From positions 5,547,481 to 5,611,480 of the forward strand of contig CP099844.1 in the NCBI GenBank assembly GCA_030062745.1: a stretch of DNA of 64,000 bases, written 5' to 3'. The notes below the pieces were generated by a model. The model saw only the letters and a list, made by a program, of their open reading frames with translations. It was not told the DNA's origin and did not search any database. Source of the DNA: Capitulum mitella (lineage: Eukaryota; Arthropoda; Thecostraca; Pollicipedomorpha; Pollicipedidae). This document shows positions 6,084-35,457 of the stretch, in pieces. Position numbers and translations under genes: made by a program. How positions within the stretch are numbered: position 1 is the stretch's first letter; each line of letters starts with the position of its first letter.

Positions 6084-6212
6084 GTAACGGAATAACGGAG
6101 TAACGGTAACTTCCGTTACTTTTTAAGGCAGAGTAACGGAGTAACGAGTAACGGACTGGCTTTTTTGAGTAACGGAGTAACGAGTAACGAAGTTACATTT
6201 TTTAGTAACGAT
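6084..6212. repeat. hAT right subterminal repeat array
   Basis: Repeated 'GTAACGGAGTAACG' motifs, opposite in orientation to the array at 2571-2745, just inside the right terminal inverted repeat. Confidence 0.75.
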
Positions 6213-6451: not shown

Positions 6452-6728
6452 CCACAGGTGTCAGCCAGCAGCAGGATGTCGGCTCCTATCCTGCCTCGGC
6501 TGAGCGGCCTGTTGCGGTCTGGACTGTGGTCTGTGTATTGGCGGGTGGTCTGTCCCTGGACTGAAGTCTGTTTGTTGGCAGGTGGTATGGTCTGGACTGT
6601 GGTCTGTGTGTCAGCAGATGGTCTGCTCTGGACTGAGGTCTGTGTGCTGGCAGATGGTCTGGTCTGGACTGGTCTGTGTGTCAGCAGATGGTTGGTCTGG
6701 ACTGAGGTCTGTGTGTCAGCAGGTGTCA
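6452..6728. repeat. Tandem repeats at PDPR exon 1, with duplicated exon start and ATG
   Basis: A first copy of the exon 1 start (acceptor CCACAG, leader 'gtgtcagccagcagcagg', ATG at 6476, then about 45 near-identical bases) is followed by about six imperfect units of 31-41 bp built from 'gtctggactgaggtctg' and 'tgtgtgtcagcag'. The last unit ends in the acceptor of the real exon 1. Each unit carries a CAG that resembles a 3' splice site. Confidence 0.8.
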
Positions 6729-6740
6729 GCCGGCAGCAGG

Positions 6741-6964
6741 ATGTCGGCTCCTGTCCTGCCTCTGCTGGGCGGCCTGGCGCGGTCGGCCCGCAGTCCGGTC
6801 TGGACGGCCGTGCGGTGGTACCATCCGCCGGCCGACCCGGCGCCCACCCTGCCGGATCAGACCGACACAGTCATCTGCGGTGGCGGCATTCTGGGCACCT
6901 CGATCCTGTACCACCTGGCCGAGCAGGGACTGGGTCCCAGCACCGTACTGCTCGACCTGGGACA
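6741..6964 (+). CDS. PDPR: PDPR coding exon 1
   Basis: Codes residues 1-74 plus two bases. Contains the Arg-rich, acid-poor mitochondrial presequence and the dinucleotide-binding motif VICGGGILG. The donor is GGGACA|GTAAGT. The acceptor upstream (GTCAGCAG) implies that the 5' UTR is split by an intron. Confidence 0.93.
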
Positions 6965-9900
6965 GTAAGTATGGAGGGACACTGCTCGCTGGCCGGTTAA
7001 GTGGGTACTGCTGTTAGTCCTCTCAAAGTTAACATTTCTTCAGTGTAACTCACAGGCATTGGGATGTTCTCGTATAAAATTGATAATGCCAGCTCTTTCT
7101 CGTTATTTTAAGTGTCATGGAGTCGGAGATTTTCGTGCAAAATTGATAGTACCAGGTAGTCAGTAATCGTTTGTCTTTTCAAGTCTAAACGAGGTTGATA
7201 AAAGGAAAATTGATCATCTGTGCTGTGAAGCATTTCAGTAGAATCCGCCTCTGTAGTCGTTCGAGGTTTAATTGTCCAACAGAAATGATACGTTTTCTGC
7301 CAGTTATAGTAGAATGTGTTTTTTTTGTTGCAGCAGAACAAAATGCTAAAATTTGTGATCATGGAGGCAGTCCTAGATACATAGGAGCACTGCATGTTAT
7401 GTCCTCGGTCTTCTTTTTTCCCAGCGATCGTGCCTTCTCCCTCTCCCTTAAAAATGTGTCATTTCCAAATGGAAACGATTCCTTGTGCATTGGTTTTCCT
7501 TCATTGAAGACAGAATGCCAGTGAGATGTTTGAAGAGCAGTGCAGCATTCGTGTTCGATTCAGTTGCCGTTGTGACAACCGCTGTGGCGCGCCTCCAGGC
7601 TGGGCAGCGAGATTCAGTTGCCGTTGTGACAGCCGCTGTGGCGCGCCTCCAGGCTGGGCAGCGGCATCACCGGACTGGCGGCCGGCATCGTCTCGATGAA
7701 CCAGCTGCACCGCGCCCAGTGCAAGCTGGTGCGCAAGAGCCAGGTGCTGTTCCGCCAGCTGACCGCCGCCGGCCACGACGTCGGCCTGGAGGAGTGCGGC
7801 AGCCTGCACCTGGCGCGGAACTGGGAGCGGCTGCAGCAGTACCACCGGCTGGCCGCGCTCTCCGAGTGAGGACGGCCGTGTGGCGGCTCTCTGGGAGTCT
7901 CACTGTACGGGCCGCTCCCTCAGAGAACCACGGCACGGTCGCCCTCGTAGAGTGAATACCATTACCACAACGTGGTAGCTCCCTCTGAGTGAGCGTCCCG
8001 CGTGTGTGAATATCGGAGTGTGAGTACAGTCGTGGTTGAGTTCTGTGTGTGACCGTAGCACGTTTAGGTTAAGAACCACCGTGCTCGTGTAGTGAATCAC
8101 GGGTTTTCCATGCGGGCTTTCTTCGCTGCCGCGTCTCGAATATCGCCAGTTGTGTCTCTCCGGAACAGCTTCCTCTTTCAGAAGCAGCTGTGATGAGCGG
8201 GAGCGTTGCGACGACCTAGTATAGACTCGACCTTTGACGATGGCCCGTGCGCAACGCCGGATCGGTATTCTCGATCAGTAGACGGTAGATCGGTAAACTC
8301 ATATCAGATAGACTAACCACCGATATCTCAGATAAGTGGTTTCCGTTGCAAACCGCCGTCTGCCAAGTACGTGGCCAATACCTTGGTTCTGAAATTTCGT
8401 TTGGCGGTGACCCCGCCCTGCGCCACATTGAGCACTGGTTTGGTACCACGTGGCTCCCCGGCCGTGCCCCTCCGACACCTGACCGTGGCGCCGCCGCCAG
8501 GTCGCTCAGCACCGAGTTCCGCATCCTGACGCCGGACGAGGTGCACCGCCAGTGTCCGCTGCTGAGGACGACCGACCTGAAGGGCGGCCTCTGGATCCCG
8601 TCAGACGTGGCCGCCAGCCCGCTGAAGCTGACGCAGACGCTGGCCGGCCTGGCGCAGCAGAAGGGTGAGCCGGCACCCCGCCCGCCCGTCCGCCCGGACG
8701 AGGGCGGCAGCGCGGCCGAGCGGGAAACGGATCTGTCGTGCCGGCAGACTGGCTGCGAGCTGTACTGGATTCTCCTGAAGGGGACGGGGGCATTCAACTC
8801 CTTTTTGAATAGTTATGTGAGGAAAGGTATTGGCTCATAAAAATTTCAGAAACCGAGGCTTTGTACGCGGCGTTTAATGGCAACGCGTTTGTATTTAAAG
8901 AGAAATGCGAAAATTGCTGCTACGAGGCTGGTGCATTCATCCGTTAACGAAGACGCGCGTGCTATTAATGCAGTGAGAGGTCACATGAGTCCATAGGTTT
9001 TGCCATTGACGACCCCGTGCCGTTACACCGGCATGGGCCACGATCCTAGGAGCGGTTGCGGGTGCGGTGGGTGTTGACATGTCACCGTGCCGTTACACCG
9101 GCAGGGGCCACGATCCTGGAGCGGTTGCGGGTGCGGTGGGTGTTGACATGACTGCGCCGTTACACCGGCAGGGGCCACGATCCTGGAGCGGGTGCGGGTG
9201 CGGTGGGTGTTGACATGACTGCGCCGTTACACCGGCAGGGGCCACGATCCTGGAGCGGGTGCGGGTGCGGTGGGTGTTGACATGACTGCGCCGTTACACC
9301 GGCAGGGGCCACGATCCTGGAGCGGGTGCGGGTACAGCGGGTCCTGACCGACGGCCGCCGCGTGACCGGCGTGGAGACGGACATCGGCACCGTCAACTGC
9401 AACCGCTTTGTCAACGTGGCCGGCTACTGGTCCCACGACCTGGGCAAGCTCAGCTCGCCGTTGGTGAAGGTGAGCGTTCGGCGGCCGGCCGGCTCCCGTA
9501 CGGACCCCAGCCGGCCGCCGAATGGGCCCAGGGAGATTGTCGTCCTGCCGGCGGCCCGTTTCCGGCTGTAATCGCTGGAAGTTGTTAGCACGATGGTCTC
9601 TTCGTGAAAAATCGTCATCAGGAGACCTGCCGCAATGCGTGCGAGTTGTTCTACCACCTTCCAGGCAGCATTAGATGTTTGATGCTCCCTTGTGGACGCC
9701 CGGATATTTTCAGATTTCCTGCCGTCTAATTGGTGGCTGGAGCTCATATCGATGCTGGGGGCAGTCGGCCGGACGCGCTGGTGTCTGACCGTTCCGCTCT
9801 CCCTCCGTCTCTGACGGCCCGGTCCTGTGCCGTGACCCCGCCGGGACCAGCGGGCCGCTCCGACCTCTGCCCGCGTCTGACCGCTCTGCCCGCCAGGTGC

Positions 9901-12900
9901 CAGTCCATCCGTGCGAACACTACTTCGTGGTGACGCGGCCCGTGCCAGCGCTGCCCGAGCACGTGCCGTCCGTGCTGGACCCGGACGGCCGCATCTACGT
10001 CCGCGCCAAGGACGGCTGCCTGGTGGCCGGCGGCTTCGAGGAAAATGCCAAGCCAGCATTCGAGGACTTTGACGGCATGCCCGGTGAGCGGCGGTCAGGG
10101 ATGAGCACGGGTGTGGAGCGGAGTCAGAGGGCAGAGTTTGTGGGTGTAGAGGGAGGTCTGCTTTTGGCGGTATGACGTGGCTTGCTCGACAAAGGACCGA
10201 AGTGTGACGGCGCTATGGTTACCTGTTTGTTGTCCCTGACCGAAAATAATCACTGATGCGTGCTGCTTCTTTTGTGTTTTATGCTAGCTGTCTAACTGGG
10301 GTTTAAACGTGCACCAGTGATGATAAGCTGTGCTAATTTGGTCCAGGTTTCATCGAGCCGGCTACATAAGGAGCGGTGCAGAGATCGGGGTCTGACCGGA
10401 CGGGCCTGCCTGACTGTCCGCCGGCCTGTCGGCGGCAGCTGACGTGTCCGCCCCGACTGACCCGGCCTCTGGCGCCGCCCCGCCCCGCCGACAGTGAGGT
10501 TCGAGTCGGAGACGCTGCAGCCGGACTGGGACCACTTCTACAGCCTGCTGCGCGAGATCGTGCAGCGCGCGCCGGCCGTGGGCGACGCCGTGCTGGACCG
10601 GCTGATCGCTTCGCCCGAAACGTACTCCCCGGACGGCCAGTGGATCATGGGCGAGGCGCCGGAGGTGAGGTGGAGACCCTGAAGGTTGCTGAGGGCGCTG
10701 GGGGTAGGCTGATGGCGGCAGGGGTAGGCCACGGGTGTTCCCGATAGTCAGAGGATGACAGAGACGGCCGCCGGCCATCTCTGTCTGCCTAGAAGCCTAC
10801 CTAATGTTTTTTTTTTTTTAACTAAAACCGTTTGCCATGGAAACCAGTGGTGTTATCCCGACTGACAAAAATTGTTTTTGCCTGTTTTTGCCACCATGTG
10901 ACAAAAACTCATATTTGTAAATTCCTGCTATTGTAATAGCTATGGGCTCGATGAGATGCACAGTTGTACTGTTAGCTTGGCCCTAAGCCAATAGGCATTG
11001 TGATTTCAGCTGATGAATAAAAAGTGTTGAGTGACACCATGTCATTGGGTGATAGCCCAGGCTTCAGGCGACTGAGATGTACCACGGTACACCGCGGTCC
11101 AAGGCCCAAGTAAATAGTGGTTTCAGCTGTAGGAACAAATGCAACAGAAATTGATTTCTCATCTTAAATAGCATGAATGGACATCATAGCATCATCTGAA
11201 CATGTAACTTTAAGCACCGCCAACAGGTTTCGTATGCTCTTATCAATGGAAAACAGGGATTGGCACAGTTGCAGACAAATAACTTACTACCTATTTGTAA
11301 CATCAGCAGGTAAAACAGTGAAATAACTGAAAAAGTAATTTGTAATTTCATAGCAGGTTGTTTGGTTTATTTATTATATTTATTTATTATTTATATTGTA
11401 AATTTATATTATTTATTATATTATATTTATTATTTATATTATATTATTTATTATATTTATATTATTTATATATATTATATATTATAAAAAAAATTAAATT
11501 TATTTATTAATTATATGTTATTATATATATTACACCAGTTGTTTGGTCGCATTGGGTTTTTGCGTGTAAATGCCGGTTTTTACGAGCAAAAAGAACAGTC
11601 ATGACTTTTGGTCTAGCAAAAACTAGTTTTTACCGGCATTTTGCGTGCCCGTCGCAACTTAATAGGACTAAGCTCCCATTAAACCAGCTTCCCTCCCTTG
11701 CCCTATCTCGTACGTGGTCACTCGGCCCCTATCGGTCATGACCCGTTTCCGTCGCGAACCTTTGACTCCGATGGGCAAGACTAGGCTGCGTCTGGGACGG
11801 AGCTCCCACATCCCGCCCGTGGCCACCCGGCCTCTCCCCGCCATCATCCGGACCCTGTCGGCCGCCATCTGTCCCCTGTAAACCGTGACCGAGCGGCCTG
11901 GTCCGGCTGACTGCGGCGCGTCTCCCAGCTGGAGAACTACTACGTGGCGGCCGGCCTGGGCGCCAGCGGCACGGCGGCGGCCGGCGGCGTCGGCCGCATC
12001 ATGGCCCACTGGATCATTCACGGCGAGCCCCACCTGGACGTGTACGAGATGGACGTGCGCCGCTTCCTGGCGCTGCACAACAACAGGACCTTCCTGCGCG
12101 CCCGCATCCACGAGGTGCCCGGTGAGCGGCGGCCGGCGGATGGTGGTGGAAGCACGGACGATCAGGGAGCCAGGGCTTAGCAAGTACCCAAGGGTGAAGG
12201 GTGGCGAGCTACGGCTGGGGAAATGCAGTTGAAATGAGGTGTAGTATTACATGTTGCCTTCAGTTCTGCCCCATGTAACGTTTGTCTTGCCTGACGTTCC
12301 TGTTAAGCCTTTTGCCGTGTAGCCAGTGCGAATATGTCCGCATTGCGAATTCACGACCATAACAGAACTGTATGCATTGAAAATGTAACATTATTTCTCG
12401 CTTGCGTGTTTTGCATGTAACCTTGCGTGTATGCCTTGCAAAGTCGTAGCCTCACCTTGGTCGAGAACTGCCAGGTGACGACTGCGGCCGCGGCTGACTG
12501 CCGCCTGCCGGCCGGCCGTGCCGCAGGCCAGTGTATGCGCATCCCGTGGACGTTCCCGGAGTACAAGTCTGGCCGGCGGCTGCGCACCTCGCCAATCTTC
12601 CCGCGCATGAAGGCGGCCGGGGCCCAGTTCGGCGCCGTCATGGGCTACGAGCGGCCCGCCTACTTCGAGCCGGACTCAGAACCAGGTCAGGCGGCGCCGA
12701 GGTCTCGCCGCCGGGTCAGATCAGGTCAGACGGCGCCGAGGTCTCGCCGCCGGGCCAGATCAAGTCAGACGGCGCAGAGGTATCGCCGCCGGGTCAGATC
12801 AGGTCAGACGGCGCCGAGGTCTCGCCGCCGGCTCAGGTCAGGTCAGACGGCGCCGAGATATCGCCGTCGGGTCAGATCAGGTCAGACGGCGCCGAGATAT

Positions 12901-15900
12901 CGCCGCCGGGTCAGATCAGGTCAGACGGCGCCGAGGTCTCGCCGCCGGGTCAGATCAAGTCAGACGGCGCAGAGATATCGCCGCCGGGTCAGATCAGGTC
13001 AGACGGCGCCGAGATATCGCCGCCGGGTCAGATCAGGTCAGACGGCGCCGAGGTCTCGCCGCCGGGTCAGATCAGGTCAGACGGCGCCGAGGTCTCGCCG
13101 CTGGCTCAGGTCAGGTCAGACGGCGCCGAGGTACCGCCGCCGGGTCAGGTCAGGTCAGTCAGGCTCCGGGTCAGGTCAGGTTAGGCGGCGCCGAGATATG
13201 GCCGCCGGTTTAGGTCAAGTCAGACGACGCCAAGGTATCGCCGCGGGGCAGGTCAGGTCAGACGGCGCCGAAGTATCGCCGCCGGGTGAGGTCAGGTCAG
13301 AAGGGCGCCGAGGTACCGCCGCTGGGTCAGGTCAGGTCAGGCGGGCGCCGAGATATGGCCGCTGGGTCAGGTCAGGTTAGGCGGCGCCGAGATGTGGCCG
13401 CTGGGTCAGGTCTGTTCAGATCAGACGGGTATGGCCGGCTGCCGACGGCACCTTGCGAGGTCGGTGAAAGTTGCGAGCGAACGTCATGTGGTGACTCGCG
13501 TTTCATTCATTTCAAAAATCCGTTGGGACCAGGTCGATAAGAAATGTATTCGCACCCTAGCCACCATGGCTACTGGGCGTTCGAGCAGAGCGGGAACACC
13601 AGCCGTGCTGCAAGCTGTTTAAGCTTGCAACGTTAAGTCGGTAACATGGCTTGCACAGCCTGCCTGATACTGTCATCTGCCCCTGCTCCACCTTTCACGG
13701 CTTCCTTGGTGCCGGCATCACCAGCAGCAGAGTATGAGCGTCCGTGACGGCCGTGTTCCGGCCGCAGGCGCGGAGCGGCAGCGGGCCACGTTCTCGGTGG
13801 CCGTGACCGACTCGTTCAGCAAGCCGCGCTGGTTCGAGCGCGTGCAGGAGGAGTACAACGCCTGCCGGGAGCGGGTGGCGATCTCCGACTACTCTTCCTT
13901 CACCAAGATCGACCTGATGGTGAGTCCGCCGCCGTAGGTCGGCGGCTGGCCGGACAGACCGCCATCAATGCATGATAATGGACAGTAGTAATGGACCAGA
14001 GGCCAGCTCCGTATTGCCAAGTGCTCGGTGGTTGCGACGTGAGATTTCGGCACATGACTTCGTTTTCATCCCGGCGGCGTGCTGCTTGAGTCGCGTCTAA
14101 CCGCGCCGGCCGCTGCCCACAGAGCAAGGGGGACGAGGTGGTGCACATGCTGCAGTACCTCTGCAGCAACGACGTGAACGTGCCGGTGGGCAACATCCTG
14201 CACACGGGCATGCAAAACCGGCACGGCGGCTACGAGAACGACTGCAGCCTGGCGCGGATCGCGCCCAACCAGTGAGGGTCGGCCGCGGCGCGGGCCCGGG
14301 CCCCGGGCCCCGGGCTCCGGGCTCCGGGCCTCGGGCCCTGGGCCTCGGGCCCCGGGCTGGTGCTTGCAGTGGATAGGGACTTGGCAGAGGCCGGCCGGTC
14401 CGACTGTGTTGGTTCGGATCTTTCTTGGTTATCGGGTATCCATTTTCCATCTCGAGTTTCCATGATCATTTGACTTCCCTACCCCGGCGCTTACTGGATT
14501 GCTTTTCCGATCCGTCCCCAGCTACATCTGATCTGTCCGTCTGTTCCCAGCTACATCTGATCTGTCCGTCTGTTCCCAGCTACATCTGATCTGTCCATCT
14601 GTTCCCAGCTACATCTGATCTGTCCGCCTGTTCCCAGCTACATGCTGATCTGTCCGCCTGTTCCCAGCTACATGCTGATCTGTCCATCTGTTCCCAGCTA
14701 CATCTGATCTGTCCGTCTGTTCCCAGCTACAGCTGATCTGTCCATCTGTTCCCAGCTACATCTGATCTGTCCATCTGTTCCCAGCTACAGCTGATCCGTC
14801 CATCTGTTCCCAGCTACATCTGATCTGTCCGTCTGTTCCCAGCTACAGCTGATCCGTCCGTCTGTTCCCAGCTACAGCTGATCCGTCCGTCTGTTCCCAG
14901 CTACAGCTGATCCGTCCGTCTGTTCCCAGCTACAGCTGATCCGTCCGTCTGTTCCCAGCTACAGCTGATCTGTCCGTCTGTTCCCAGCTACAACTGATCC
15001 GTCCGTCTGTTCCCAGCTACAGCTGATCCGTCCGTCTGTTCCCAGCTACATCTGATCCGTCCGTCTGTTCCCAGCTACATCTGATCCGTCCGTCTGTTCC
15101 CAGCTACATCTGATCCGTCCATCTGTTCCCAGCTACAGCTGATCCGTCCGTCTGTTCCCAGCTACATCTGATCCGTCCGTCTGTTCCCAGCTACAGCTGA
15201 TCCGTCCGTCTGTTCCCAGCTACATGCTGATCTGTCCGTCTGTTCCCAGCTACAGCTGATCTGTCCGTCTGTTCCCAGCTACATGCTGATCTGTCCGTCT
15301 GTTCCCAGCTACAGCTGATCCGTCCGTGTGTTCCCAGCTACAGCTGATCCGTCCGTTTGTTCCCAGCTACAGCTGATCCGTCCGTCTGTTCCCAGCTACA
15401 GCTGATCCGTCCGTCTGTTCCCAGCTACAGCTGATCCGTCCGTCTGTTCCCAGCTACAGCTGATCTGTCCGTCTGTTCCCAGCTACATGCTGATCCGTCC
15501 GTCTGTTCCCAGCTACATCTGATCTGTCCGCCTGTTCCCAGCTGCAGCTGATCTGTCCGTCTGTTCCCAGCTACAGCTGATCTGTCCGTCTGTTCCCAGC
15601 TACATGCTGATCTGTCCGACGATCCAGCACGGCCGGTGCCGCTCGTGGCTGCAGCGGCACGCGCCGGCCGACGGCAGCGTGGTCGTCTCGGACATCACCT
15701 CGCTGTACACGGCGCTGTGCGTGATGGGGCCACTGGCCCGCGAGCTGCTGTCCGAGATCACCGACCAGGACCTGAGCCCCAAGAGCTTCCCCTTCTTCAC
15801 GTTCAAGGTGGGCGCGCGGCGCCGTCGGTCGGCCGGCGAGGAGTGTCCGGTCCGCTGAGTCGGCGGCGGCGCGGCGGTGTTCACTCTGACGTTCAGCTGC

Positions 15901-18900
15901 ATTGTCTGACGGAACTGATGTCAAGTTTGAGTGGCAGTTGCCTTTTTATCGCTGCTGTTGGAGTCGTTAGCACACGTCACATGTGTGCGAAATATCCTGA
16001 GAATACCAAAGCTGGGCAGCCTGGCAGGAAGTAGTTTGCAAGTCAGAGGGCACTAGTTCTGAATCCTCGAAACCATTCTTTTTCCTGCATGGTGTTCTTT
16101 TCTTTATCTCCTCATTATTACCATTATTGCCTGAAGAAGCCTGGCTTATGGTGCGAACAGCCGCCGTCTGCCGAGTGCCGGGCGTCTGGCCAACAGCGGC
16201 AGACGCGAGCGCCACCTGACGCCCCGCGCCGTGTTCCACAGGAGATAGACGTCGGCATGATCGCCGGCGTGCGCGCCATGAACATGACGCACACTGGCGA
16301 ACTCGGATGGGTGCTCTACGTGCCAAACGAGGTCAGGACCGCGGGCAAATTCTGGAATGTGTGTGAATGTATGTGTGAATGAATGTATGTGAATGCGGGA
16401 AAGAATGACTCAGACTTATGAATGTTCGTTGTGCACATGTGTCTGATATGTTTGTTTGCAAAGCTGCAGCGTTCGCTGCGCGAAGTAGCCGGACATGCTA
16501 TGTTTTTGCTATGTACGAACTAGACGCATTGGCATCGTTTGCGGTTTCCTTTATCGATTGACGTGGGCCGTGGTAGGTGCCATTATGTAGTGTGCGCGCT
16601 CACTGTGTGTGAGCGTGCAGCTGTGAGTGCAGTGTGACTTTGTTGTTCCTTTGTCCTTGCTTTGGTGTCTTTCGTCCCGTCGCTTTAACGCCGGCCGGCC
16701 GCGTCCGGCAGTGTATCTGCGTGTGCGGTGTGCCTTGTCGGGCATTGTATGGGCGTGTGCGCGGCAGTGTGCCAGTGTGTTTGCGGTGTGTTGTGCCCGG
16801 CACTGTATTTGTGTGTGAGCGGCATCGTGTCGGTGTGCCGTTGTTGGTCTGTCCGCGCCGTCCGTGGCCGTTCCTCCCGGCTGTGGTGTACTGTGTAGTC
16901 TGGTGTGCTGTGCGGTGTCACAGTAGTCTAGTTCGCGGCGCGTCCCTTGTGCGGTATCCTATCCCAGCTGCGACAGCTCTGTCGCTCTGCTGTAAAGGCC
17001 GGCTGTGGCTGCGCCGCGGACGGTCGCTCGGCAGGCGCGGCCGACTGCGGGCCTCGCCGCCCCGCTGGTCCGGACAGAGTGGTGACTACTGTCACCGTCC
17101 GGCCGGCCCGGACAGAGTGACGGCCGACTACTGTCACCGTCCAGCCGTGGTGACCACTGTCATAGTCACAGAGTGGCGACTTCTGTCACCGTCCGGCCGG
17201 CCCGGACAAAGTGGTGACTACTGTCACCGTCCGGTCGGCCCGGACAGAGTGGCGGCCGACTACTGTCACCGTCCAGCCGTGGTGACCACTGTCATAGTCA
17301 CAGAGTGGCGACTTCTGTCACCGTCCGGCCGGCCCGGACAAAGTGGTGACTACTGTCACCGTCCGGTCGGCCCGGACAGAGTGGTGACTGCTGTCACCGT
17401 CCGGCCGGCCCGGACAGAGTGGTGACTGCTGTCACCGTCCGGCCGGCCCGGACAGAGTGGTGACTGCTGTCACCGTCCGGCCGGCCCGGACAGAGTGGTG
17501 ACTGCTGTCACCGTCCGGCCGGCCCGGACAGAGTGACGGCCGACTACTGTCACCGTCCAGCCGTGGTGACCACTGTTATAGTCACAGAGTGGCGACTACT
17601 GTCACCGTCCGGCCGGCCCGGACAGAGTGGTGACTACTGTCACCGTCCGGTCGGCCCGGACAGAGTGGCGGCCGACTACTGTCACCGTCCAGCCGTGGTG
17701 ACCACTGTCATAGTCACAGAGTGGCGACTACTGTCACCGTCCGGCCGGCCCGGACAGAGTGGTGACTACTGTCACCGTCCGGTCGGCCCGGACAGAGTGG
17801 CGGCCGACTACTGTCACCGTCCAGCCGTGGTGACCACTGTCATAGTCACAGAGTGGCGACTACTGTCACCGTCCGGCCGGCCCGGACAGAGTGGTGACTA
17901 CTGTCACCGTCCGGTCGGCCCGGACAGAGTGGCGGCCGACTACTGTCACCGTCCAGCCGTGGTGACCACTGTCATAGTCACAGAGTGGCGACTACTGTCA
18001 CCGTCCGGCCGGCCCGGACAGAGTGGTGACTACTGTCACCGTCCGGTCGGCCCGGACAGAGTGGCGGCCGACTCCTGCCGCCGTCCGTCCGGCCCCGGAC
18101 GGCAGACGGCATCAGGGCTTCCCGGTATCCAGGGCCCGAGAGGGGCAGACGAAATGAGAGGTTTTTTTATGTCGCCTCTTGCTCGGTTGCAGTCGTTACA
18201 TCACTGGCCGGTATTCGTCTGCTGTCGTCATTTTGTTGCGCGATCGTTCATGCATGACTGGGCGCCTCCGAGGGCCCACCACGGGCAGCCAATAACCTCC
18301 AGTAAGGCAGACTTATTGGATGCATTTAATGAGGGTATTGAACGAGAAGGTCCAGTGAGATGAGGGGACGCAGCCAGCTGTGTACTTACGGACTTGTCTA
18401 GACGGCACCGTTGTGAAATCACTTGTATCCATCTGTATTTGTATCTGTATTGTGTGCGTCACTTGGCCGTGTAAGAGTTCATGGAAGGGTGGATAAGATC
18501 AATCGATAGTACGTTGAGGCATTTGAGACACGATCGTCACGAATAGTTTTGGGTATTTTCTTTAGCTGATAAGACAGTCTCTGGTTGGATATCTGTCATT
18601 CGTTATCTGCTATTTTCATTTGGAACCGCTGTCAGCTTGCGTTTCTTGTACAGCGTGTCCCCCCAAAATTGTGACATTTTTCTTAATAACAGACACGGTT
18701 TTGAGGATAAATACTTGATTGCTTCATATAATAATGCACATGAATGGCACGTGCCACGGTTTGTTTTTGTCTTCGAAACGTTCATTAGTGCCGGAGCTAT
18801 GGCGTGATCAAGATTAGGCTCAAGCGAGGAAAAGGCATTTTGTGTTGAAAAATACGCAACAGCCAGATCCTCCCAACAGACCCGTTTAGAGTTTGCACAC

Positions 18901-21900
18901 CGTTTCGGTCTTAAAAGACGCGATGCCCCCCCCCCCGCCCCCCGGCAATCAGTTTGCCGTTGGATGCACATATTCAGAGTTCATGAAACGGTTGTCAGTC
19001 TGAACGCTTCAGCCCCGAGCGAGACTACTCACTGGGGAAGACCAAAATCTCGAAGAATTCCAGCCAACATCGCCACCGTTGCGTCCCGTCGCCCTCGCTG
19101 CCAAGAGCCCGAAATGTCCAAGAATGGAGTGTCTGACATTCCGATGAAGGACTACACCGATAACATTTAGGTGTGCTCCATAAACTCGAACCCCAAGACA
19201 CGGAAAACGGATGGCCATGTGTCATTGGTTGACTGACAGACTCAAACAGGAACCAAACTTCTTTGACGATGTCTAGTTCACAGATGAGGTATACGTTTTG
19301 CTTATTGGCCACGTCAATTCAAAGAACAATGTGTACTGGGAATTGTACTTCATAGTGAACCCTGCGATCCGAACGGTCCCCATCTCTCAGCGCATGAACG
19401 TTGTGAACAATCTGGCCATATGCATTCGTATGTGTTTGAACCGCCGACCAACATTTAGGGCATGTAATAAAACAGTCATAAAATCAATATGAAACGTCTT
19501 ATGAAAGTTATGGTTATGAAAGTTGGTGGGCTAAACATGCAGAGCACTGCAAATGCCGTGCGACAGGGTGGCGTTCTTAACTCAGTAAACAAAGAAATTA
19601 TTGCCAAATTAAGTGACACATTTTTTAGGGCACTGTAATTTTCATGACTGCCTTCGCAAGGCACCCTTTCCCCGATGCGCTCGTGTTTTCTGTCCTCGTT
19701 CCACTCAGTTCCGAAGAAACGTTTTTTTTTTTTTGGTATTTGCTCGCTCGCATTCTAGCTGTAGCGCTTTCAACGTGAACGCCTCTGCGGAGTCGTCTAC
19801 GGAGTTCTAGTTCGCGTTACTTGCGCCAGTGTGCTGTGGATACTGAGAAGCAGTGAGTCAGCCGTCGTGGCAGCAGTATGTGATTTTAGAGTCCTGCGTG
19901 CTCAGCATATTTTTCGCTTCCATTCGCGCTTCCCCGTCATTTACGAACAGTACATACCTATCGCTGCTCATGCCTGTATTAGATATTTGAAATGCCTGTG
20001 TGACTGACTCATGTATGAGCCGTCCTGCATCCATAACGAATGCAGAACCATAGTGAAACGAACTGTTGAACAGCAAGATGCATTGTGACTGTCTGTTGTA
20101 CCCCAGTAACCCTACGTTCGTCTTTTTCATCTACCGTAGGACGCCGGGTGATCGTTTCGTGCCTGACGGTGCGTCATGCGAAACGCCGTTTTCTCTGTCG
20201 CAGAACGCGCCGTAATTCTTCGTGTCCTCTGCCGCAGTACGCGCTCTACGTGTACGACCTGCTGATGGAACGTGGCCAGGACTATGGCCTGGCGCTGGCT
20301 GGCTATCTGGCCATGCGCTCCCTTCGCGTGGAGAAGTTCTACGCCTTTTGGGGCCAGGACCTGGGCACTACAACTACCCCGTTAGAGTGCGGCAGGGCCT
20401 TCCGCGTCAAGTTCAACGTAAGGAAGCCTTCGACTTACCCGTTCTATCTTGTGTGATTTGTGCGTAATCTGCAGTTTAAGCATTAAACACGTTATCTGAC
20501 GTAACCCGAATCTGTTTAATCTGATCAGCTGTTCAGAAATGTTACCTGCAGGCCGCCGTGAGATGGCGTTTCCAGCTCGGCCTCGCAGACCGTGGGTCTG
20601 ACGCCGTCCGTGTTCGCCCGCAGCGGGACATCGACTTCATCGGGCGCGAGTCGCTGCTGCGCCAGCGGGCTGAGGGCGTGCGCCGGCTGTACGTGCACTT
20701 CACCGTGCAGGAGCACGAGCCCGAGACCGACCCGTGGGCCTGGGGCCACGAGCCGATCCTGCGCGACGGCGTCTACTGCGGCCTGGTCACCACGTCCTCG
20801 TTCGGCTACAGCCTGGGCAAGCTGGTCAGTGCGCCGACCGGGCGGCGAGCGCTGGGCGACGTGCTCAGGAGGGCGGACGCGGCCGGCTGAATAACTTGTG
20901 GGAGGCATTGATAGAAGTTAAGTCAAGTCTCTCTGCCATCGTTCTTTCTCTCGTGTACTCGCCCCTTTGCCTTTTCATTATCAGTCCATATTTCTTGTAA
21001 AGTCCTGTCCCTCGTCATGTGGCTTCCCCTTTCTTCCTCTCGGTGTTTTTCCTATGATTGGCACGGTGTTATGTTGACCGAGCCAGCTCAGCCCGGGAGT
21101 TTTTCAGTGTCCCAACAGGCACGACGTCAGCTGCCTCTGACGCTGGTCGCGCTGCGTTCATTCGTGACGCTACATACTTGTCTCTCTGTCTCGCACCGGG
21201 CTGGGATACAGCCCGACCGTGTTCGGTCGAGGTCGGGTATAATGCATTGGCCGTGTCGTAAACAGCGGATTATACGCCGTCGCTGTCGCCTGCGTTCAGC
21301 GGGGAAGGGATCTGGGACAGTTCGTCCCGTCCATTTGAGCGATGACGGTGCGCGGTACGAGTAGAGGCAGTCGGACTTGGAAAGAGGAAGCTAGACGCGC
21401 AGTGCAGTATCGGCCTGCGTTATCGATCACCGTTCGTTGGATGCGCAAAAAACATGCGCGTTTCGCCGATCTCAGAATTAATGTGACCGGAGTGCGCATA
21501 TAAATGGGATGTGGAAGGTTCGTGGAAAAAGGTCCTTGCAAGGGTCTCGCGCTTTCTACGAAAAATTGCGCATGCACTTGTACGGACGACGTATTCTGGA
21601 GCGGCTGCTGTCTCACTGTGTAGCCAACCGGCTTGGTGCAGACAGGACATTCTGATCGGGGACTTACGTTGCCAGCCCAATCGGGGGGAAGGCGTAAGCG
21701 GATGGTGGGCGACCGCGAACGTAGAGCGGCACCCGCGGTTCCGCGTCCGCGCAGCTCCACCACGCTGCAGCCTCCGCTGCACAAGTCGGCCGCGACCACT
21801 TCGTAATGGATGTCCGCGAGGAAAAAGCAAAAAGTAACAAACTTTCCAGTCAACTCTGCGGCGCGTCGTTAATGACGGATGGGCCCAGCTGCGTCCGAGC

Positions 21901-23590
21901 CGTGCGAACAAACAGGCGCGGATCGATACCGGACACCCCCGCCGGAGCCCGAGCCGCGGGGAAGAGGCGGAGACGGCGGAGACCGGCACCGTCTCTGCGC
22001 TGTCTCCCGGCCGACAGATCGGCGTCTGAGCCGCGGGCCAACTGAGCCTGTCCCGGTCCCGGTCCCAGTTCCGGTTCTAGTTCCAGTTCCGGTCCCGGTT
22101 CCGGTTCCGGTTCCGGTCTTGGTCCCGGTCCTGGTCCCGGTGCAATGTTGGGACACGTGGAATCTCAGTCCTTGTTCCGTCATTCGTGAGGACGCCGTAG
22201 GTGCTATCCTGGTCCGGCCCACGGGTCAGTCTTCTTGCTCCTTTCGGCTCGCCGGATACTGCGGTTACCGGCTTAATCTCGGCGGTTTCTGGTGGCCAGC
22301 AATGACTGCTAGTTGTGTGGGACTCCTTGGCACTGGAACGAATACTTGTGGACGCGCGGTGGTTAGAGCAGTCATTGATCCGGTGGAGGTTGTGTACAGA
22401 CGGCGTCCGTCAGGGAACCTTGATTTGAAAGACGAGGGTTTCGTGTTTTTCCTCCGTTAACCCCTCCCTCCGGTGGTGGAGGTGTGCCACGGCCGTATGC
22501 TGGCGCTGCATTTTGGTCTGGCGCCCTTGGCAGCACTTATCCCCTTTCAGTTGACCTGGGCTTCGCACAGACCTTGTCCTTTCGTCAAGCGCTTCTCACA
22601 GTACCCGCGTGAATAATGGATGTGCTCGAACTACATAGAAGGCACGTGCTTTCTTGTACCGTTACTCTCCTTTGGCATGTGTTCGTGGCCTCCGCTCGGG
22701 GCTTGTATTAGATCAGGTTCGTTGTCATTTAAGGTGATTGTTCCACCTTTGAAGCGTTTTTTCGTTTACTTACAGAGCCAAGTTGTCGTTCATCGTCCTG
22801 AAAGGTTTCTGATATACATTATATGTCTAAGGCGTATATTGACGGAGTTTCAGAGCGATTTTCCGCGAATTTCCCCGGCGTCCTATTCGTCCGTGTCTTG
22901 TCAGCAGCGACATTGCGACACGAGCGAGCCCAGGCCAGTGCACGTTAGCAGAAAGCCAGTATTGTGTTGAGTCGCATTTTCCGATAACTTTGGGCGCTCT
23001 GTGGAAAAGGTACTGCTGGAATCGTCAGCGATATTCACGCGACCAGCTGAACGTGGTTCTGAAACGTCGCCAAAGCAGGGCATTCCTTGTAAGTCCGACG
23101 GTCCCTCACGGTCTCGGCCGTCCGGCAGGTGTGCCTGGGCTTCGTGCAGGACCTGCGGCGGATCATTCCCTGTAAGTCCGGCGGTCTCTCACAGTCTCCG
23201 CCGTCCGTCAGGTGTGCCTGGGCTTCGTGCAGGACCTGCGGCGGGACATTCCCTGTAAGTCCGGCGGTCTCTCACGGTCTCCGCCGTCCGGCAGGTGTGC
23301 CTGGGCTTCGTGCAGGACCTGCGGCGGATCAGTCCCTGTAAGTCCGGCGGTCTCTCACGGTCTCCGCTGTCCGGCAGGTGTGCCTGGGCTTTGTGCAGGA
23401 CCTGCGGCGCGGCGAGCCGGCCGTCATCTCCAGCGAGTACGTCCTGCGCGGCCACTACCAGATCAACATCGGCGGCCGCCTCTTCTCGGCCAAGCCGTCG
23501 CTGGTGTCGCCGTCGCTGCCCACCAAGTACCAGGAGCCGGCGCAGAAGCGCTATCAGGCCACGCAGCACACCTGGGGCGTGCGCTCGTGA
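6741..23590 (+). CDS. PDPR: Pyruvate dehydrogenase phosphatase regulatory subunit, mitochondrial (15 coding exons)
   Basis: Joined exons 6741-6964, 7653-7865, 8501-8664, 9306-9469, 9897-10083, 10495-10664, 11929-12121, 12527-12685, 13768-13919, 14123-14271, 15600-15807, 16242-16331, 20238-20417, 20624-20824 and 23378-23590 total 2667 bases, phase-compatible throughout: 888 residues, close to human PDPR (879). In vertebrates this protein binds the PDP1 catalytic subunit in the mitochondrial matrix and tunes its Mg2+ sensitivity, so it controls reactivation of pyruvate dehydrogenase. Visible layout: Arg-rich presequence (about 1-38), FAD-binding DAO domain with VICGGGILG at 44-52, a linker domain (about 415-490), GcvT-like domain with GGYENDC (577-583) and LRVEKFYAFWGQDL (720-733), and a GcvT C-terminal barrel. 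At the site where dimethylglycine dehydrogenase has its flavin-linking His, this protein has Leu83, as expected for PDPR rather than a demethylating enzyme. Third codon positions are strongly GC. The start is the first ATG in frame with the presequence; an out-of-frame copy of the start lies at 6476. Confidence 0.95.
6965..7652 (+). other. PDPR intron 1
   Basis: GTAAGT...CTCCAG. AT-richer than the exons, with a 54-bp duplication at its 3' end (7557-7664). Confidence 0.85.
7557..7664. repeat. 54-bp tandem duplication across the exon 2 acceptor
   Basis: Two near-identical 54-bp copies (starting 7557 and 7611) each contain GCGCGCCTCCAG followed by GCTGGGCAGCG, i.e. the acceptor plus the first bases of exon 2. 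Use of the upstream acceptor (exon from 7599) would keep frame but reads into a TGA within about ten codons, so only the downstream copy can make the protein. Confidence 0.85.
7653..7865 (+). CDS. PDPR: PDPR coding exon 2
   Basis: Residues 75-145. Holds the ITGLAAG segment (80-86) where related flavoenzymes carry the covalent-FAD His, and the 'EECGSLHLA' block typical of the DAO fold. Donor TCCGA|GTGAGG. Confidence 0.93.
8501..8664 (+). CDS. PDPR: PDPR coding exon 3
   Basis: Acceptor GCCGCCAG|GTCGC, donor AAGG|GTGAGC. Encodes 'ILTPDEVHRQCPLL' and 'GGLWIPSDVAASP', matching the PDPR/DMGDH segment with 'S...hP.D....'. Confidence 0.93.
9035..9305. repeat. 67-bp tandem repeat made of the exon 4 acceptor and exon start
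   Basis: Four upstream copies (exon-like parts beginning 9035, 9105, 9172, 9239; spacing 70, 67, 67, 67) precede the real exon at 9306. Each contains 'GTTACACCGGCAG' and 'GGGCCACGATCCT', which is the acceptor plus the first codons of exon 4. The first copy has lost the AG (GGCAT). Since 67 is not a multiple of 3, use of a neighbouring decoy shifts frame. Confidence 0.9.
9306..9469 (+). CDS. PDPR: PDPR coding exon 4
   Basis: Residues 201-255. Encodes 'RRVTGVETDIGTV' and 'FVNVAGYWSHDLG', the DAO-domain strand followed by the conserved 'NCAG.W' block. Donor AAG|GTGAGC. Its first bases are copied four times upstream. Confidence 0.93.
9897..10083 (+). CDS. PDPR: PDPR coding exon 5
   Basis: Acceptor CCCGCCAG, donor CCCG|GTGAGC. 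Encodes 'VHPCEHYFVVTRPV', 'DPDGRIYVR' and 'VAGGFEENAKP', highly characteristic of PDPR/sarcosine dehydrogenase relatives. Confidence 0.94.
10495..10664 (+). CDS. PDPR: PDPR coding exon 6
   Basis: Acceptor GCCGACAG|TGAGG, donor CCGGAG|GTGAGG. Encodes 'LQPDWDHFYSLL' and 'SPETYSPDGQWIMGEAPE', the end of the DAO domain. Confidence 0.93.
10665..11928 (+). other. PDPR intron 6
   Basis: Contains a T-rich stretch near 10810 and a low-complexity A/T block at 11365-11530. No nested gene seen. Confidence 0.8.
11365..11530. repeat. A/T low-complexity block
   Basis: Irregular runs of TTATTTATAT and TATATTATAT in PDPR intron 6. Confidence 0.8.
11929..12121 (+). CDS. PDPR: PDPR coding exon 7
   Basis: Acceptor TCTCCCAG|CTGG, donor CCCG|GTGAGC. 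Encodes 'YYVAAGLGASGTAAAGGVGR', the C-terminal FAD-contact Gly-rich loop of the DAO fold, and 'RRFLALHNNRTFLRARI'. Confidence 0.94.
12527..12685 (+). CDS. PDPR: PDPR coding exon 8
   Basis: Acceptor GTGCCGCAG|GCC, donor ACCAG|GTCAGG. Encodes 'GRRLRTSPIFPRMKAAGAQF' and 'GYERPAYF', the linker domain before the GcvT half. The donor is followed at once by a 40-bp minisatellite. Confidence 0.93.
12686..13430. repeat. 40-bp minisatellite starting at the exon 8 donor
   Basis: About 18 imperfect copies of a roughly 40-bp GC-rich unit made of 'GTCAGATCAGGTCAGACGG' and 'CGCCGAGGTCTCGCCGCCGG'. Most units contain CAG|GTCAG, very close to the real exon 8 donor CAG|GTCAGG, so the intron starts with a field of donor-like sites. 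Long Arg/Ser-rich open frames across it are artefacts of the repeat. Confidence 0.9.
13768..13919 (+). CDS. PDPR: PDPR coding exon 9
   Basis: Acceptor GGCCGCAG|GCGC, donor GATG|GTGAGT. Encodes 'DSFSKPRWFERVQEEYNACR' and 'AISDYSSFTKIDL', the start of the GcvT-like domain. Confidence 0.94.
14123..14271 (+). CDS. PDPR: PDPR coding exon 10
   Basis: Acceptor GCCCACAG|AGCA, donor AACCA|GTGAGG. Encodes 'LQYLCSNDVNVPVG', 'HTGMQN' and 'GGYENDCSLAR', the folate-domain signature of the GcvT family. Confidence 0.95.
14285..14360. repeat. GC hexamer-type simple repeat after exon 10
   Basis: Runs of GGGCCC / CCGGGCT variants immediately after the donor. Confidence 0.7.
14522..15599. repeat. 29-30-bp minisatellite copied from the exon 11 acceptor
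   Basis: About 37 copies of 'CTACATCTGATCTGTCCG' + 'TCTGTTCCCAG' (variants CTACAG, CTACATG; T/C changes). The real exon 11 starts with the same CTACATGCTGATCTGTCCG right after the last TCTGTTCCCAG. So each unit is a 3' splice site plus about 19 bases of exon, and the intron ends with dozens of near-perfect decoy acceptors. Confidence 0.95.
15600..15807 (+). CDS. PDPR: PDPR coding exon 11
   Basis: Acceptor GTTCCCAG|CTAC, donor TTCAAG|GTGGGC. Encodes 'HYMLICPTIQHGRCRSWLQR', 'SLYTALCVMGPLARELL' and 'SPKSFPFFTFK'. Start fixed by phase 2 from exon 10 and by identity to PDPR; upstream repeat copies would not join correctly to the rest of the exon. Confidence 0.93.
16242..16331 (+). CDS. PDPR: PDPR coding exon 12
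   Basis: A 90-base exon. Acceptor TTCCACAG|GAG, donor AACGAG|GTCAGG. Encodes 'GMIAGVRAMNMTHTGELGWV', the conserved GcvT 'R...h.YTGE.G.E/h' block. Confidence 0.94.
17050..18075. repeat. Higher-order minisatellite, about 132-bp period
   Basis: Units combine 'GACTACTGTCACCGTCCGG', 'CCGGCCCGGACAGAGTGG' and 'GTGGTGACCAC...CATAGTCACAGAGTGG'. The CATAGTCACAG block recurs at 132-bp spacing (17709, 17841, 17973). A middle segment (17380-17530) shows four copies of a shorter subunit, so the array has two levels of repetition. It is not next to an exon. Confidence 0.9.
18645..19640 (+). mobile_element. Dead IS630-Tc1-mariner-like transposon (DUF4817-type helix-turn-helix)
   Basis: Starts with ACAGCGTGTCCCCCCA near 18648, like the GGGTGTCCC ends of this group. 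Translation from about 18835 gives 'FCVEKYATARSSQQTRLEF' and 'HRFGLKRRDA', then 'RVHETVVSLNAS', matching the N-terminal helix-turn-helix of a common arthropod/mollusc transposase family. Further on, past stops and frameshifts, 'LIGHVNSKNNVYW' (19298) fits the DDE region. Multiple stops: inactive. Right end near 19620-19637 is uncertain. Confidence 0.6.
20238..20417 (+). CDS. PDPR: PDPR coding exon 13
   Basis: Acceptor CTGCCGCAG|TAC, donor TTCAAC|GTAAGG. Encodes 'YALYVYDLLMERGQDYGL', 'AMRSLRVEKFYAFWGQDL' and 'TPLECGR', close to human PDPR. Confidence 0.95.
20624..20824 (+). CDS. PDPR: PDPR coding exon 14
   Basis: Acceptor CGCCCGCAG|CGG, donor AAGCTG|GTCAGT. Encodes 'RDIDFIGRESLLRQR', 'DPWAWGHEPILRDGV' and 'TTSSFGYSLGK', the GcvT C-terminal barrel. 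Confidence 0.94.
22049..22140. repeat. Hexanucleotide repeat
   Basis: CCGGTC/CCGGTT/CCAGTT variants, about 15 units. Confidence 0.85.
23088..23377. repeat. 83-bp tandem repeats carrying the exon 15 start as mini-exons
   Basis: Three copies of the exon 15 start (23129, 23212, 23295) precede the real one (23378) at exactly 83-bp spacing. Each has GTCCGNCAG|GTGTGCCTGGGCTT plus the code for VCLGFVQDLRR and then CCCT|GTAAGTCC. Thus each has an acceptor, about 43 bases of exon and a consensus donor. The real exon instead continues from 'LRRG' to the stop. Confidence 0.95.
23378..23590 (+). CDS. PDPR: PDPR coding exon 15 (terminal)
   Basis: Acceptor GTCCGGCAG|GTGTG; stop TGA at 23588-23590. Encodes 'VCLGFVQDLRRGEP', 'RGHYQINIGGRLFSAKPSL' and the C terminus. 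Matches the 'H.CLGFV' region of PDPR. Confidence 0.95.
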   Translation: MCLGFVQDLRRGEPAVISSEYVLRGHYQINIGGRLFSAKPSLVSPSLPTKYQEPAQKRYQATQHTWGVRS

Positions 23591-33172: not shown

Positions 33173-33565
33173 TCATCTGCGCCGCCCTACCCCGAGACCA
33201 CGTCGACCCACCACCGACCGTCCATCGGCCATAAGACGTTGCTGCCGCCGCCACCGCTGACGCCGACCGAGAACTCCTCTGCCTCTGTGGGACACCTGGA
33301 CGGGCACCCGTCACGGTCTAGTCGCTGCCGCCAACGTCGCCCCCGTCTCCGCTGTCGCTGCCTCCGTCTCCGCGCCACGCGGTGGCGGACGTCGTCGCCA
33401 CCGCCGCCACTGCCGCCGCTCCCTCCTGGGCCCGAAGATTTGCCGTCGCCGTCGCAGTCCTCTCGGTCGCACCCAGGCCTTAGCAATGGGCCACCGACAA
33501 GCGCGTCCAGAGTGGCGCCTGGGGCGAACGGACATACAACTGTCGCTGGGGACCCGGTGCCGTGA
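33173..33565 (+). pseudogene. Proline-rich segment, probably upstream part of the WAVE/SCAR-like sequence
   Basis: Open frame with 'LLPPPPLTPTENSSAS' (from 33239) and 'PPPPLPPLPPGPEDLPSPSQ' (near 33395-33455), ending at TGA 33563-33565. A Pro-rich tract directly before the VCA is the WAVE layout. It is in a different frame from the VCA segment that starts six bases later, and no workable donor/acceptor pair joins the two, so a frameshift is likely. The middle is Arg-rich and may be non-coding. Confidence 0.35.
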
Positions 33566-33570
33566 CACAG

Positions 33571-33825
33571 GTGGGCACGCCCGCCCCGTCCGCCGTCGAG
33601 CCGCCGGCCGTGTCCGACGCTCGCAGCGACCCGCTCAAGGCCATCAGAGACGGCGCCACGCTTCGCAAGGTGGAGGTAGTGGAGGAGCGGGAGCGCGGGC
33701 AAACGCAGTCGCTGCACGGCGTGGTGTCGATCCCAGCGCGCCGCGTCTCCATCGAGGTGTCGTCGGACTCCAAGTCGGACTCGGACTCTGACTCGGAGTG
33801 CCGAGACGAAGCAGGCAGCGCCTAG
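33571..33825 (+). pseudogene. WAVE/SCAR VCA-like C-terminal segment (WH2 + central helix), diverged or decayed
   Basis: Translation shows 'DARSDPLKAIRDGATLRKVE' (WH2/V motif: DARS, AIR.G..LRKVE), then 'GVVSIPARRVSIEVSSDS' (the central helix of WAVE, consensus DVA.ILSRRIAVEYSDSE), an Asp/Ser run, 'ECRDEAGSA' and a stop. WAVE proteins bind actin through V and Arp2/3 through C and A. Odd points: Leu-to-Pro at the first WH2 Leu pair and at the central-helix Leu, both helix breakers, and the invariant Trp of the acidic tail is missing. A possible acceptor CCGTGACACAG precedes it at 33570. It may be the last exon of a divergent paralogue, or a decayed copy. Upstream WAVE homology domain not found. 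Confidence 0.55.
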
Positions 33826-35457
33826 ATCCGTCCCGAGCTCTTCGTCTTCCGTCTTTTTCGTTGGATGGCACCATACTCTCTCTTTAGAGACTCCATCGCG
33901 GCAAGAATTTTGTGCGGATGACCCCGAAGCGTGAAGTCGATGTGACCAATCATCCCGTAATTCAGCTTTGTGTTTGTTTGTCGTGAGCTGGATTTAGCAT
34001 GACGGCAATCCAGCTCACAGCAGTCGATGGCATGATGGCATTTAGATGGCATTTGGAAAGAACAAGTAACGGCAGGGATGTATGCAGATTTTTGCAATGA
34101 GGGGGGGACAACTCAAAATTTTTCACTAAAAACCAAGCTTAGCGCCCCGCAGGCGCGCGAAGTCTTTTGCATGGCGTCCAACAATATCGTATGCTCCCGA
34201 TTTACATATTTCAAATATGTAAATCAAATCAAATTCCAACTTCATGCTCGGCGTGGACCGCTGAACGATACCTTATGGCTAGCTGATGACCGAAGAAAAT
34301 ATCACTGACATGGTTTCCTTTCCGAATGTGGTAGATTGTGTAACGACTGGAATTTCGTCCCAATTCCCCAGGCTCCTCGATGTTGCGTCCCATCGTTATG
34401 CAAACACTTTATGACAATGTCATTCCCTCAGACGGGGACTGGCAGAACTACAGCGGCCTGTGAGCGGAAGGAGCCAAACCTCGTGGCTGCAGGATCCAAC
34501 GTGTGTCGGTCCGTAAGAGCAGCGCGGGAACCACTGACAGATCGGGGCGGGAGTTGTCACCGGGCCAATGGTCTCATTTTCTTTGGAAAAGTATAAATAT
34601 GTTTTTCCGAAAGATTCTTCAATGTAGCTAATCTCCGAAGGCGGCGAAACAAATAGGCTGAAATCCGCGCCAGATCAACACTTGAGGAGTGGGTTAGGTT
34701 AAACGGATGGAAATTTTCCTCTTCTTTCCCCGCCCTTTGCATGAAGCATGAGTCCACCGTTGTTTGCTGGGAACAAATTTGTATAACGAGCAGAAGGACT
34801 GAAATTTTGCGGAAGTTACTAGGTGGCACATACGTGCCCTTATAAAGTGCAGTGCAACATGCTAAATATGAACATGAAGCACCTTCAACATTTTGCACTC
34901 ACCACCGGACCTTGCCACATTTCCACAGTTGTGTTCGTGTCGCATGCTATTCCACTGGAGTATCGGCGTCTTTCAGCAAAATGATCTATGCACCTGGCTC
35001 TGTAGCAAATGATCTGAAGTCAGGCGATGCTCGTGTTGCAAAAGGCGGGGCGCTTGTGAGTCGTGGTGTTGAGCCTGCCGCGAAGCTCCTGGATGTAAGG
35101 GACCTCCGAGGGGCCGGGTACCCTGAGATATTCTGCGGAGCCATATTGCCGGACGCCTTGTGACAAACGGTCACCTGGGTCTTGCTTCCTCCATCGAGGG
35201 CAGCATTCCATCGCGTGACGTTCAAGCGATACCTCCGTCATGCATATTCAACATCTGCGTGAGGTGCAACATAGCTAACAAAGACTCCCTCCCATAATGG
35301 CAATTAGAAACTTGTTTCTACACTGTTGCTAAGTTATGCAATGGTCATTTAAGATGTATCGACGGAAACCACGGAAAGTATTCGCACTCGTTTAGTACAC
35401 AACGGAGACCGAAGGATGCGGTTGTGACGGAAACATACGAAGTGCTAAATACACCTT
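33826..35457. other. Intergenic, nothing recognised
   Basis: No exon-like structure seen on either strand. Confidence 0.4.

Follow-up and report, generated by a model that had tools for sequence, protein, structure and literature searches.

The 64,000-nucleotide stretch of the Capitulum mitella genome analysed here (contig CP099844.1, positions 5,547,481 to 5,611,480, forward strand; hereafter the window) contains a complete gene for PDPR, the pyruvate dehydrogenase phosphatase regulatory subunit. The gene has 15 coding exons separated by GT/AG introns and comprises 888 codons in a single open frame; the GC content of its coding sequence is 0.68, and that of its third codon positions (GC3) is 0.93. 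Five of its exon edges lie within tandem arrays that carry copies of their own splice site, four of them acceptors (exons 2, 4, 11 and 15) and one a donor (exon 8). The gene is laid out as follows, in coordinates of the window.

6741..23590, forward strand: PDPR coding region, placed by its open frame, GT/AG introns, GC3 and identity to Pollicipes
6741-6964, 7653-7865, 8501-8664, 9306-9469, 9897-10083, forward strand: exons 1 to 5
10495-10664, 11929-12121, 12527-12685, 13768-13919, 14123-14271, forward strand: exons 6 to 10
15600-15807, 16242-16331, 20238-20417, 20624-20824, 23378-23590, forward strand: exons 11 to 15

A protein search, in which scoring was restricted to the 8000 candidates sharing most words and 120 of 267 matches were listed, places the product among barnacle PDPR proteins. 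The closest among the matches listed are PDPR-named proteins of Pollicipes pollicipes (86-87% identity over the full length) and Amphibalanus (83-84%), and the next, again among those listed, are arthropod proteins at about 54% identity and below. The Pollicipes relative contains the DAO, FAO_M, GCV_T and GCV_T_C domains. Its alignment with the Capitulum protein has no gap or insertion at any array-bearing junction, a comparison made at the level of proteins. In each acceptor array the coding copy is therefore the final one, and in the donor array it is the first; the spare copies thus derive from the exon side and sit in introns. The alignment predicts that the copy used in splicing is the one at the conserved junction.

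Tandem Repeats Finder (TRF) returned 45 rows over the window, and the rows within the gene were merged into 11 arrays. The arrays at the five clear junctions are minisatellite-like, with units of 29-83 bp that hold both intron and exon bases, and all five extend on the intron side. Two further edges, at exons 13 and 1, have duplications of a less clear-cut kind. Spare copies of a splice site are referred to below as decoys.

7557..7663, forward strand: exon 2 acceptor array, 54-bp unit in 2 copies, taking in 11 exonic bases; one decoy acceptor, first base 7599
9019..9333, forward strand: exon 4 acceptor array, 67-bp unit in 4.7 copies; decoys at 9105, 9172 and 9239
12683..13420, forward strand: exon 8 donor array, built of 19 units of 39 bp, the first of which carries the real donor (exon 8 ends at 12685)
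14517..15618, forward strand: exon 11 acceptor array, 38 units of 29/30 bp in total: 37 decoy acceptors and then, with first base at 15600, the real acceptor
23081..23409, forward strand: exon 15 acceptor array, 83-bp unit in 4 copies, taking in 32 exonic bases; decoys at 23129, 23212 and 23295
20187..20244, forward strand: exon 13 acceptor duplication, two degenerate copies; the decoy, with its first base at 20204, precedes the real acceptor by 34 bp
6461..6722, forward strand: exon 1 leader and start block with array; first copy with ATG at 6476, 36-bp array of 5.8 copies at 6516-6722, second copy from 6723 with ATG at 6741

Splice signals recur throughout these arrays: there are 45 decoy acceptors with AG (1, 3, 37, 1 and 3 at exons 2, 4, 11, 13 and 15, respectively), to which exon 8 adds 24 donor-like sites. 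At exon 4, 28 exonic bases are identical (by eye, the likeness reaches about 48) and AG is kept in three of the four copies, CAT replacing CAG in the most distal one (9035). The exon 8 donor array takes in three coding bases by the TRF bounds, whereas local alignment carries the match, two gaps included, across 17 exon bases (from -17 to +18 relative to the edge). The reading frame of exon 8 is open across nearly the whole of this array (12685-13380), and both other forward frames are open for at least 200 codons. The exon 11 array overlaps 19 coding bases, and its 37 decoys comprise 32 units of 29 bp and five of 30 bp, among which there are 17 distinct sequences. A short direct repeat, GATCCGTCC before the array and GATCTGTCC in exon 11, was noticed by eye as a candidate seed; it could also be a truncated copy. 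At exon 15, each 83-bp unit has GTAAGT about 40 bases ahead of its CAG acceptor (by eye), an arrangement that resembles a tiny intron.

A reading of the same DNA made without database searches (the sequence-only reading) had counted six junctions embedded in repeats of themselves. The five listed above hold, but the sixth, at exon 1, takes another form: the 36-bp array there stops 19 bp short of the start codon, and what is duplicated instead is a block of acceptor-like CAG, leader, ATG and first codons, with a putative acceptor and with the two ATGs 265 bp apart. This block scores 62 of a possible 72 in the edge scan described below (shuffle maximum 24), and a frame of 174 codons, out of phase with PDPR, runs from the upstream ATG to 7000. 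In the same scan the exon 13 pair, with 19 of 24 bases identical, scores 28, where shuffles reach at most 20. Of the unit sizes given in that reading, 54, 67, 29 and 83 bp were recovered; the exon 8 unit is of 39 rather than 40 bp, and that at exon 1 is of 36 bp.

The sequence-only reading took the pattern to be undescribed, but tandem repeats that span exon/intron boundaries are already on record in amphioxus under the name of mirages. The passages that deal with them place such repeats in Adh3, troponin C, the globins BflGb6 and BflGb9, and PGBD5, at acceptor and donor edges alike and with units of 10-72, 60, 108 and 150-160 bp (PMC3087553, PMC3902484). As portrayed there, AG or GT is present in many copies, copies at the ends of arrays escape homogenisation, a normal protein is inferred from one copy, and regular splicing is left intact (PMC3087553, PMC3902484). 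The arrays of barnacle PDPR are likewise minisatellite-like and boundary-spanning, and keep splice signals in many copies. They differ in number: the amphioxus passages give one or two arrays for each gene, with at most seven copies, whereas PDPR has five clear and up to seven such edges and up to 38 copies. The same passages treat instability and RNA in amphioxus, whereas the barnacle arrays are known here from the sequence of one assembly. The founding paper on mirages, concerning Adh, is reportedly that of Canestro and others (2002). No barnacle case of exon-edge tandem arrays was found among the matches listed in the open-access literature, in which checks of the Balanus improvisus, Pollicipes and Capitulum genome papers were confined to chosen terms. 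PDPR is thus a real instance of a kind already known and a new member of it, with as many as seven mirage-like edges, five of them clear.

We favour the reading, to which we give a probability of about 0.7, that these are minisatellites of the mirage type: local duplications, each seeded independently in the GC-rich flank of an exon, with the coding copy held by selection and the spare junctions tolerated. Short tandem duplications would arise independently in GC-rich DNA flanking exons, perhaps by replication slippage or unequal exchange, and a few of them would happen to span a splice junction. Selection would hold the coding copy, so that extra copies would gather in intron DNA, ahead of an acceptor or beyond a donor. 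Splicing would remain normal, as it would probably be set by exon definition, in which the acceptor nearest the real exon pairs with the downstream donor; a mis-splice into an internal decoy acceptor would meet an early stop, and the message would presumably decay. Spare junctions could be tolerated for these two reasons, the probable exon definition and the early stops. Duplication of this kind, with selection on the coding copy, accounts for most of the observations, and decay would be expected to clear the majority of splicing errors.

We asked whether repeats meet exon edges more often than other intron positions. They do so within the PDPR gene, which is as far as this expectation of the sequence-only reading is borne out; all the tests are post hoc, and concern a single gene that was flagged for the very property tested. 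A coding-exon edge is overlapped by five of the 11 arrays (0.78 expected; simulated P = 0.00065), and for eight of the 11 an edge is no more than 25 bp away (1.33 expected; reached in none of 20,000 simulations). With arrays collapsed to one unit, five of ten are at edges, where 0.46-0.86 are expected (P = 2e-5 to 6e-4). Intron DNA is GC-rich beside exons, however, with a GC content that falls from 0.73 in the 25 bp next to an edge to 0.66 at 25-50 bp and 0.47 at 100-200 bp, and this accounts for part of the edge excess but not for all of it. Matching for GC raises the expected edge counts two- to three-fold; for the collapsed arrays the expectation becomes 0.97-2.3 (P = 0.001 to 0.04), and an earlier GC-matched null, in which wholly exonic placements were also scored as hits, gave P = 0.001 to 0.47.

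In the edge scan, 36 bases across each of 29 edges (15 acceptor-side, the start codon included, and 14 donors) were compared with the 1500 bases next to that edge in the direction of the intron. A score of at least 28, a threshold that equals the lowest score in this group, was reached by seven of the 29 edges, those of exons 1, 2, 4, 8, 11 and 15 plus exon 13; the remaining 22 have shuffle-like scores. Controls were intron windows at least 60 bp from edges, with arrays collapsed, and their rates are rough, as these windows overlap and the hits fall in eight loci. There were 17 (upstream) and 32 (downstream) hits in 1315 control windows, and 14 and 21 in the 402 with GC of at least 0.58. Against the larger of these rates (32/1315 and 21/402), seven of 29 edges is an excess (binomial P = 5e-6 and 6e-4), as is, at a threshold of 36, six of 29 against 25/1315 and 17/402 (P = 1.5e-5 and 0.0012). 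Nearby copies were found at six of 15 acceptors and one of 14 donors (P = 0.08 by Fisher's exact test).

These counts are what speaks for the strongest rival, namely that exon edges, and acceptors above all, are duplication hotspots in this lineage beyond the effect of GC, for example through transcription- or splicing-linked breakage. The excess over GC-rich intron windows, the clustering within 25 bp of edges and the tendency towards acceptors all point that way; but each is drawn from one gene picked for showing the pattern, with a threshold fitted to the weakest edge, control windows that overlap, and expectations that climb once GC is matched, and we regard a hotspot as possible but distinctly the less probable account. 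The sequence-only reading had proposed that splice junctions or R-loops may promote such duplication. We are just as tentative about its extension, in which exon edges, mostly acceptors, would be duplication hotspots across barnacle genomes beyond GC, introns would grow by copying their own splice sites, and barnacles and amphioxus, having come to this separately, would share a common cause. A second intron-bearing gene was not recognised in the 64-kb window (24 GC3-selected frames outside PDPR; ten frames Pfam-scanned), so that the window offers no gene-level control. Three further arrays of the gene overlap no edge:

10688..10729, forward strand: short array, 20-bp unit in 2.1 copies (TRF), beginning 24 bp after the exon 6 donor
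14291..14357, forward strand: array of the 7-bp unit CGGGCCC (TRF), beginning 20 bp after the exon 10 donor
17070..18086, forward strand: intron 12 array, units of 38/132 bp (TRF), away from any exon edge and thus a counter-example within the gene

In the 1-kb array of intron 12, the 38-bp and 132-bp units form a higher-order repeat with palindromic CCGGCCGGCCCGG, and the unit folds better than its shuffles on both strands.

We next consider what the decoys would do if used. Outside the last intron there are 42 decoy acceptors (1, 3, 37 and 1 at exons 2, 4, 11 and 13, respectively), and every one leads to a premature stop. Each of the 37 at exon 11 stops 10 to 70 nt past the junction, 32 of them at 10 nt, and the exon 13 decoy stops at the fourth codon. 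The exon 15 decoys, in the last intron, alter the C-terminus: one stops at 23341, and two pass the normal stop to give 1043 and 1034 residues. Among the donor-like copies at exon 8, 13 of the 24 stay in frame as far as the normal end and the other 11 run into a stop; the exon 8/9 junction is near a loop that has ten extra residues in the Amphibalanus protein. A splice-site matrix, built from 13 or 14 sites of PDPR itself and too weak to rank decoys, gives the real site and its decoys 12.6 versus 10.4-13.8 at exon 15, 7.0 versus 7.0-7.2 at exon 4 (AG decoys), -0.8 versus -4.6 to 3.8 at exon 11, and 9.8 versus 3.3-9.8 at the exon 8 donor.

The uniform stops of the acceptor decoys, and the in-frame donors beside the loop that is longer in Amphibalanus, could also indicate function, with decoy acceptors serving as poison sites that adjust the dosage of PDPR by way of message decay, and with in-frame decoy donors varying the protein. 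We consider this improbable, because entry into intron-side DNA in a new frame usually meets a stop and only four independent acceptor arrays are involved, while the exon 8 array, being open in all three forward frames, makes in-frame extension cheap.

The copies within an array are not uniform. Identity to the exon copy drops with distance at exons 4 (range 0.93 to 0.98) and 15 (range 0.91 to 0.96), and at exon 8 identity to the consensus unit falls likewise (rho = -0.73); that distal copies are the more diverged in these three arrays is as expected if array ends escape homogenisation. The divergence also bears on whether the assembler made or mis-counted some or all of the copies. Precedent exists, in that amphioxus arrays of like kind are noted as mis-assembled in one of the accounts cited (PMC3087553) and the copy numbers of lancelet PGBD5 differ between two versions in the other (PMC3902484). 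Point changes nonetheless separate the copies, both among the exon 11 decoys and in the graded arrays, and a separate artefact would be needed for each of six unrelated arrays, so that we hold an assembly artefact to be slightly less probable even than function, although copy numbers may still be wrong. Array lengths may also well differ between alleles, since barnacles can be very polymorphic, with coding diversity put at about 5% in Balanus improvisus (PMC8270832).

Comparison of the units supports the view, already taken in the sequence-only reading from their differing lengths, that the arrays are independent events: the units are unrelated, with none of the 21 pairs scoring above the best of 60 shuffles. 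A single repeat family, or a mobile element targeting splice sites, might be suspected when several arrays share one gene, but was rejected, as the units are without similarity and each carries bases of its own exon.

Several observations weigh against tolerated, GC-seeded minisatellites of the mirage type as a sufficient account. The exon 11 array, the longest in copies, shows no gradient or, if anything, a reversed one (rho = -0.25, P = 0.14), and its unit has a GC content of only 55%. The edge excess survives GC matching in both the placement test and the scan, so that GC alone may not suffice. Stops at decoy acceptors are likely by chance and come from few independent arrays, and the exon 15 decoys would yield no stop of the type that triggers nonsense-mediated decay (NMD). 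Moreover, on the weak matrix, decoys and real sites have much the same scores, and therefore nothing local explains why the last acceptor would win. Hairpin-driven slippage was rejected as a general cause: 14 DNA folds (seven units, both strands) gave z from -2.61 to +2.04, and the units of exon 8 (minus strand) and intron 12 were alone in folding clearly better than their shuffles.

Two other known systems can be set beside a mirage-type origin of the PDPR arrays. Intron gain by tandem genomic duplication, of the Rogers type, shares with it a local duplication that takes in splice signals; there, however, a new intron arises inside coding sequence, whereas in PDPR existing introns would have grown, with the protein apparently unchanged relative to Pollicipes. 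For new introns in Drosophila, NMD is argued to shelter imperfect splicing (PMC2809761). Premature stops in PDPR would similarly let decay hide imperfect splicing, but the Drosophila case concerns new introns with weak sites, and PDPR has repeated copies of one site. If the arrays are real and normally spliced, exon 11 would present 38 near-identical 3' splice sites of which one is productive, a natural experiment on splice-site choice. The mirage pattern, which we know in print only from amphioxus, would moreover now be found in an arthropod, where duplication at exon edges and the lengthening of introns become testable.

Other features of the window are minor. Within intron 12, positions 18880-19460 look by eye like a decayed DNA-transposon transposase, of which a 61-residue piece had no Pfam match. 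A reverse transcriptase fragment lies on the minus strand at 39268-39687 (Pfam RVT_1, E = 3.4e-07), and was the sole match among the ten frames scanned; a GC-rich open frame of 268 codons at 33190-33993, also on the minus strand, had no Pfam match. Short repeats occur at 2582-2743 and 6085-6210, with TCCGTTAC in one and its complement GTAACGGA in the other.
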